Assembly: GCF_001894945.1 (NCBI RefSeq)
Contig: NZ_BCXE01000021.1
Span: forward strand, 1-64,000
Origin: Rhodococcus ruber NBRC 15591
GTDB lineage: Bacteria > Actinomycetota > Actinomycetes > Mycobacteriales > Mycobacteriaceae
Direction of reading: 5' to 3'
Length of the DNA stretch: 64,000 bases
In this document: positions 1-763 of the stretch, piece by piece
Position numbering within the stretch: the first letter of the stretch is position 1
How the letters are laid out: every line of letters starts with the position of its first letter
The notes under the pieces: generated by a model
What the model was told of the DNA's origin: nothing
The model's input: the letters and a program-made list of their open reading frames with translations, nothing else
Database searches by the model: none
Program-made: the position numbers and the translations under genes

Positions 1-49
1 GGTGTGCCACCCGGACGAGGTCGCCGGTACCGGTCGCCCACACCACTCG

Positions 50-665: not shown

Positions 666-696
666 AGCGAGGGGTCGGTCCGAATCAGACCCCGCT
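666..696 (-). promoter_or_regulatory. Attenuator-type hairpin overlapping leader ORF stop
   Basis: Plus-strand 666-676 (AGCG, bulged A, GGGGTC) pairs with 688-696 (GACCCCGCT), giving about nine G/C-rich pairs. On the minus strand the 5' arm is the last codons of the 13-residue leader ORF and the loop contains its TGA. A ribosome reaching the stop would cover the 5' arm and keep the hairpin open, so translation of the leader and folding are mutually exclusive. No U-tract follows, so it may act through translation or Rho rather than as an intrinsic terminator. Confidence 0.45.
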
Positions 697-726
697 ACGG
701 CGGTGAACTACGAGTACGCGCTTCAT
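685..726 (-). CDS. Leader peptide MKRVLVVHRRSGV, candidate amino-acid attenuator
   Basis: A 13-codon ORF, ATG at 726-724 and TGA at 687-685, encodes MKRVLVVHRRSGV. Residues 4-7 are Val-Leu-Val-Val, a cluster of branched-chain amino acid codons as used in ilv/leu attenuation. A promoter with good hexamers and a 17-bp spacer ends only 8 nt before the ATG, so the transcript would start at or next to the start codon (leaderless), as is common for actinobacterial regulatory uORFs. The downstream gene encodes a LeuA regulatory domain, which fits the codon content. The call rests on codon content, promoter placement and the hairpin; conservation has not been tested. Confidence 0.5.
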   Translation of the reverse strand: MKRVLVVHRRSGV

Positions 727-734
727 GAGAGCCC

Positions 735-763
735 ACAGTAGAGCGTTGCCCGGCGGAAGGCAA
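735..763 (-). promoter_or_regulatory. Promoter of leader peptide / LeuA-domain gene
   Basis: On the minus strand TTGCCT (763-758) is followed by a 17-nt spacer and TACTGT (740-735), close to the SigA consensus. The predicted start site is about 725-728, at the leader ORF's ATG. Confidence 0.6.

Follow-up and report, generated by a model that had tools for sequence, protein, structure and literature searches.

The window considered here is the whole 64,000-nt stretch at the start of contig NZ_BCXE01000021.1 of Rhodococcus ruber NBRC 15591, near the left end of which a short leader precedes a gene for the regulatory domain of LeuA without its catalytic barrel (hereafter the solo gene). All features described lie on the reverse strand unless stated otherwise. 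The solo gene (612–100, 170 codons) begins 72 nt past the stop of a 13-codon open reading frame (ORF), MKRVLVVHRRSGV-stop (726–685), which carries Leu-Val-Val control codons, is preceded by promoter-like hexamers, and ends within a hairpin. The region is probably a leaderless leader-peptide attenuator that controls the solo gene and is a sister copy of the LEU element, known from leuA. The initial annotation, made from the sequence, had already proposed attenuation; its leaderless leader, branched-chain codons, and detached LeuA domain are retained here and found to be conserved well beyond the genus, and its reading is refined to a LEU sister with valine plus leucine as the likely signals.

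The comparison covered the family of Rhodococcus, which we take to include Mycobacterium, Nocardia, Gordonia, and Corynebacterium as well. At E ≤ 0.01, BLAST detected the 102-nt leader region in 231 of the 301 family genomes searched and in 27 of 31 genera; the weakest of these matches (near E 0.005) may be chance. R1, a covariance model of the element, found matches in 268 of the 301, leuA leaders included. The 170-aa protein was matched in 17 of 18 genus genomes. From the 301 genomes, 69 element loci were read, 17 in the genus chosen by the protein and 52 elsewhere chosen by the element, so the presence of a solo LeuA domain behind the element in 69/69 is partly a matter of choice. The solo protein was extracted from 54 of these loci, and the remaining 15 were established as solo by other comparisons. 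An additional 23 loci were selected by the protein. An order-wide search was also made (E ≤ 1e-20; 200 genomes), the results of which hold among the matches listed.

Leader ORF and control codons

The leader is present in all 17 genus loci, 16 of which share the same 42 nt; the other differs by one H to R change. The initial annotation had named a lack of conservation of this ORF as grounds for giving up its claim; the comparison was run, the ORF is conserved, and the claim is not refuted. The frame through to the same stop is retained in 67 of the 69 loci. The two frame-shifted leaders, L074 (MKRMKLVFRP) and L083 (MQRLLVVHP), stop early inside the hairpin with the RNA structure retained, and were excluded from the codon and promoter-box counts. 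The remaining 67 leaders start with ATG (43), GTG (23), or TTG (1), and their length, with starts chosen by script, varies by whole codons from 10 to 18. An arginine at codon −11 from the stop is encoded by CGC, CGA, or AGG, and codons −5 to −1, which sit within the hairpin, are nearly fixed in their nucleotides.

The control codons CTC GTA GTT (Leu-Val-Val, 714–706) occupy positions −9 to −7 from the stop. Among 36 distinct solo leaders, codon −7 is Val in every one, codon −8 is Val in 31 and Leu in 5, and codon −9 is Leu in 29 and Val in 4. The valine at −7 is written GTA (20) or GTT (16), never GTC or GTG, the two codons that make up 92% of the Val codons in 28 gene-like ORFs of the window (GTA and GTT, approximately 4% each). 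By their identity, these codons point to valine plus leucine as the amino acids read.

Leaders in the 23 protein-picked loci were sought by a script for the Leu/Val pattern, with L174, L175, L176, and L178 read by eye, and 19 of the 23 were found to have one, for instance MTCLLVVAHP, MRSLLVARRRSGV, MRKILVVTGRNGA, and MHAARLLVVRRSRL. In L174 and L175, the Val at −7 alone is retained of the three control codons, and strongly divergent leaders occur in the Corynebacterium-like L176, L177, and L178 (genus g3). The L176 leader is MQTNILKRVAKATNPGGGRQD, with GGACTAACC and GGTTGGTCC as candidate arms of a crossing helix; the solo gene of L178 likewise has a divergent leader and arms able to form such a helix.

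Putative promoter and leaderless start

A −35-like hexamer TTGCCT (763–758) and a −10 hexamer TACTGT (740–735) are separated by a spacer of 17 nt in the sequence. The first base of the −10 box lies 14 nt 5′ of the leader ATG at 726, so transcription would begin at or close to the start codon. A TANNNT box beginning 12–16 nt 5′ of the leader start was found in 60 of the 67 in-frame leaders, compared with 0.8% at random places, and 58 of those 60 also carry TTG at the −35 place, separated by a 17–18 nt spacer, compared with 3.3% at random. A consensus promoter tool reported no sigma-70-type promoter in positions 1–1000 of the window, so it is the comparison that carries the promoter claim. The initial annotation had proposed a promoter at 763–735 with its start at the ATG of the 13-codon ORF, which is borne out by the hexamers and by the 67 leaders compared. 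In L075–L080 (genus g23), the leader core is kept (LVV, then RRSGV) and the TANNNT box is absent from its usual place; a different promoter or start may be in use there.

Conserved RNA structure

The last codons of the ORF form the 5′ arm of hairpin H2 (700–690), which pairs with 674–662 in 98.9% of cells across 49 aligned sequences, as the initial annotation had noted for the 5′ arm. That description is corrected here in that H2 is part of a pseudoknot: GGACCGA in the H2 loop (681–675), directly past the leader stop, pairs with TCGGTCC (645–639) in 99.4% of cells, and 17 cells, at two of the seven pairs, have changed on both sides. Tested as a whole, the structure surpasses all 500 shuffles in covariation score, in the proportion of cells that pair, and in the count of both-sided cells, and pairing drops to approximately half when it is slid along the alignment. 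In swap tests, 2 of 2000 permutations were as good for the pseudoknot and 95 for H2, with relatedness only partly removed in these tests and in the tree. A local stem within the Val codons (711–705 with 655–649) is weaker, its two parts being paired in 88% and 70% of cells; the 5′ strand of the stem hardly varies and its 3′ side drifts.

A chance hairpin was ruled out by the pairing and covariation over the 49 sequences. A known Rfam element was also considered and rejected: the leader has no match up to E 5, and in nine relatives only tRNAs scored over the gathering threshold.

Pairing over the start of the solo gene

A further correction to the initial annotation is that leader codons 1–7 are able to pair with the start site of the solo gene. 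In the minimum-energy fold of the window leader (z −2.3), 725–708 pairs with 617–600, a strand covering the solo start codon and the first codons, and the duplex amounts to −19.5 kcal/mol; the local stem competes with this long-range base stem. Folding, swap, and start-stem analyses were confined to 62 loci by excluding seven without a Shine–Dalgarno (SD)-like motif at the expected distance. In 52 distinct loci, the locus's own start stem pairs better than all 2000 permutations. When each of the 16 genera was represented by a single locus, the median fraction of permutations that were as good was 0.002 (worst draw 0.05), compared with 0.22 and 0.28 for two control regions. The letters that pair differ in other genera: in L085, L089, and L091, GTGCCG at the leader start (codons 1–2) stands opposite CGGCAC just 5′ of the gene's ATG.

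A possible SD-sequestering arm, GGTCCTCCC (643–635), shares GGTCC with the pseudoknot. Its possible partner is GGAAGACC (627–620), which comprises the SD-like GGAAG and a conserved GACC tail; the script placed an SD-like motif in 62 loci, and in 50 of these GACC lies directly 3′ of it.

The solo LeuA protein

The solo gene encodes the LeuA linker helices and the regulatory (dimerisation) domain. The window protein scores 18.8 bits against Pfam LeuA_dimer (PF08502), under the gathering cut-off of 24.9, and the solo rows divide into 19 over and 19 under that cut-off, a few other short-frame rows being excluded; at E ≤ 0.01, 36 of 42 orthologues match. The protein has the LeuA regulatory-domain fold. 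The call of a solo LeuA domain in the initial annotation was thus right, weak as it was by the window sequence, and is settled by the orthologues, the profile comparison, and the fold. A wrong gene call was considered and rejected. The leucine-closing loop of LeuA is shorter in the solo protein, where residues shared by all of 20 LeuA sequences are missing from it. The first residues are NAFTS, compared with DAFTS in the LeuA of the same genome, a likeness that says little about origin because it is short and its codons lie within the long-range stem. In L094, the solo protein has an insertion carrying FVHRAQDN repeats.

Relation to the leuA leaders

The window genome carries leuA on a separate contig, behind a leader of its own (MQRALLLGRRGGI) that has the same layout: a −10 box 5′ of the start codon, an ORF ending in a hairpin, crossing arms, and an SD-like GGAG. 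A survey script that sought Leu/Val/Ile-rich ORFs was used for leuA leaders, and LLL was found in the leader of 30 of 30 leuA loci read. Of 20 leuA loci searched with R1, 17 give their leader at E ≤ 5e-4, two give a weak match, and one is missed. Of the 42 R1 rows obtained from 16 genomes, 18 were examined; 16 stand ahead of a full leuA with LLL and two ahead of solo genes with LVV. The recovery of leuA leaders by R1 and the LLL/LVV contrast lead to the conclusion, drawn from sequence, that the solo and leuA leaders are sisters differing consistently in the codons read. The gene would descend from a copy of leuA in which the leader was retained and the catalytic barrel lost, the leader being recoded from leucine to leucine plus valine.

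The LEU element was reported ahead of leuA in most Actinobacteria (Seliverstov et al., 2005; PMC1262725). Its conserved pseudoknot after the leader ORF is found in the window. The window element does not lie in front of leuA, and the leucine run is replaced by Leu-Val-Val; the LEU base stem joins the leucine codons to the SD, and here codons 1–7 meet the start region 617–600, not the SD-like motif (627–623). With two LEU features missing (the leucine run and leuA behind) and a third changed (the base stem), the element is classed as a sister variant and not as a member.

Similar leaders with LLL also precede the second leuA paralogues in L151, L155, and L160 (MAFRGLLLHRRDGV, MRSFAFLLLRRHGGA, and MTRVLLLSRRGGA). 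A second copy of the element in the window genome was sought with the covariance model, which at E < 0.01 gives the leuA leader as the sole other match. Elsewhere in the same genome (G000:C14:27804-27832), 29 nt resemble the H2 and crossing-arm portion of the element by BLAST (90%, E 5.7e-4).

Proposed mechanism and alternatives

Under the attenuator reading, codons 1–7 would fold back onto the solo start codon and close it when no ribosome is on the leader or once one has finished. A ribosome awaiting charged Val or Leu tRNA at the control codons would cover the leader strand, and the start would stay open. The pseudoknot would assist by keeping GGTCC off the SD-like motif. The start stem resembles the LEU base stem and offers the simplest way in which a waiting ribosome could act. 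A search of the leader strand for intrinsic terminators found none, so that regulation would need to work through the translation start or Rho.

Three folding models were applied, namely downstream of the ribosome only, the same with the pseudoknot at three penalties, and both sides of the ribosome, with a footprint size taken from PMC13236596; tertiary stacking and kinetics are not part of these models. In the both-sides model, the window's own start region has an accessibility of 0.52 with the ribosome stalled and 0.27 with it at the stop, the direction that the mechanism requires. As for the mutually exclusive folds expected of an attenuator, co-variation with the leader is seen in the strands that could shut off the start or the SD, and the models yield no average difference between states.

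Several results weigh against this mechanism. Averaged over the 62 loci, SD accessibility is 0.21 stalled and 0.20 at the stop, and that of the start region 0.44 and 0.45, the stalled value being higher in 16 loci and lower in 19. The window's own SD moves in the opposite direction in the downstream-only model (0.06 stalled, 0.21 at the stop), and the pseudoknot is rarely populated in the folding model (≤0.11 on average). The missing terminator counts here as well, and the SD sequestor has modest support, 38 of 2000 permutations being as good. Of the five covariation measures, two do not rise above the shuffles, namely pairs with both-sided changes (150/500) and further pair types (274/500). 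Two of the 69 leaders are frame-shifted; among the 23 protein-picked loci, four Corynebacterium-like ones (L183, L184, L185, and L188) have no leader ORF within the stretch read, and three others of the genus diverge strongly. L185 has arms resembling those of the pseudoknot. Finally, changing codons in the Streptomyces coelicolor leuA leader did not have the effect expected under classical attenuation, according to PMC1262725.

The best-surviving alternative, though an unlikely one, sees in the leader RNA a pseudoknot with a protein or small molecule as its ligand, the short ORF serving only to load ribosomes or being a relic. The extreme conservation of H2 and the pseudoknot speaks for it, as do the S. 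coelicolor codon changes and the lack of an average ribosome-dependent switch in the folding models, and a protein-bound element (ML1624 and orthologues, helicase-like) was preferred for LEU by Seliverstov et al. (2005; PMC1262725). Against a binding element of this kind stand the retention of frame and codon identity, with a Val at −7 in 36/36 leaders and A or T as its third base while the partner strand of the local stem drifts, and the consistent difference in control codons between solo and leuA leaders. As to a ligand pocket, the passages of the same paper on the LEU element report no suitable conserved unpaired nucleotides (PMC1262725).

An arrest peptide, in which the conserved LVVxRRSGV end and not tRNA charging would stall the ribosome upon a metabolite, is quite improbable. 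RRSGV is indeed conserved beside the stop, and known arrest peptides likewise have a conserved end at that place; however, its codons fall within the H2 5′ arm and would be conserved there by RNA pairing alone, and other leader ends exist (MTCLLVVAHP, VHIKLVTRP) while the Leu-Val codons stay. Least probable of all is an untranslated ORF whose bases are conserved for RNA structure only, the start-site stem included, with the peptide as a by-product. The near-fixed codons −5 to −1 in H2 and the co-variation of codons 1–7 with the gene's start site speak for it; against it speak a promoter box locked to the start codon (60/67), three kinds of start codon, a frame kept through whole-codon length changes, and an arginine written in three ways.

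The comparison suggests, in line with the attenuator reading, an unstudied valine/leucine control circuit ahead of a detached LeuA sensing domain in Rhodococcus and most of the relatives examined. LeuA consumes 2-ketoisovalerate, the direct precursor of valine. The solo protein might conceivably be a free-standing LeuA brake made in valine shortage, pairing with LeuA and lowering its activity so that 2-ketoisovalerate is directed to valine and pantothenate, a role that is doubtful at present. Under such a role, low charged valine tRNA may turn on the solo domain via the Leu-Val-Val leader, and the recoding from Leu-Leu-Leu to Leu-Val-Val may mark a changed task.

Genomic surroundings

Past the solo gene lies a strong GC-rich hairpin (82–55), read from the sequence and recurring nearly the same, with small changes, in L003; the transcript therefore probably holds this one gene. 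Behind the solo gene, a tRNA cluster of Val(GAC), Gly, Val(GAC), Cys, and Gly occurs in the genus loci L003, L005, L013, and L016 and in L047, the four genus loci having an additional tRNA-Val(CAC), and the contig start (window 1–48) is partly like the end of that cluster. No tRNA-Val cluster near the solo gene was seen in nine loci of other groups, and the neighbourhood is for that reason not used as an argument. A weak 6C RNA match (24.6 bits, cut-off 47) lies at 842–907 on the forward strand, with a GNAT gene on one side and the leader promoter on the other. No 6C RNA exceeded the gathering threshold in nine relatives, a few of them represented by loci with little upstream sequence.

Significance and comparison with known systems

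If the attenuator reading is true, the Rhodococcus family keeps a second, valine-coded leucine switch ahead of a detached allosteric domain. The solo and leuA leaders would then be a natural sister pair differing mainly in the amino acid read, in which the mechanism of the LEU element could be tested by codon swaps. It would also suggest that branched-chain amino acid synthesis may have a regulatory subunit that has yet to be studied. A search of open-licence PubMed Central papers turned up no account of a leader of this kind ahead of a solo LeuA domain.

Compared with the LeuA regulatory domain (PF08502; PDB 1sr9, 3fig), the solo protein lacks the catalytic barrel and has a remodelled leucine-closing loop. 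In M. abscessus LeuA, that loop is the site of A555, and MAB_0337c is given as the synthase (PMC11057210); ribosome profiling in the same species revealed a protected upstream ORF ahead of MAB_3424c, which is named leuA there (PMC4974804). In an RNA-seq study of Corynebacterium glutamicum, a leader peptide of leuA containing four leucine codons was named (PMC4046766).

Leaderless short ORFs of mycobacteria rich in cysteine codons (polycysteine ORFs) reportedly act as attenuators, in work attributed to Canestrari et al. in 2020. They are similar to the window leader in being leaderless short ORFs of this function, with cysteine codons and other genes in place of those seen here, and we know of no comparable pseudoknot in them.

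The ilvB leader attenuators of C. glutamicum and M. tuberculosis (ilvB1) share with the window leader a short leader with Val/Leu codons (LVVI in M. tuberculosis) and a branched-chain gene behind it. The M. tuberculosis ilvB1 leader, which was tested with reporters, uses an intrinsic terminator (PMC13236596); none was found on the strand of the window leader.

The closest likeness is to the LEU element, which also has an upstream short ORF with branched-chain codons, a pseudoknot, leader codons able to pair with the gene's translation start, and a LeuA-type protein encoded behind. The window element differs in having Leu-Val-Val for the leucine run, a stem over the start codon region and not the SD, and a gene without the catalytic domain, a kind of gene of which the passages on the LEU element make no mention (Seliverstov et al., 2005; PMC1262725).
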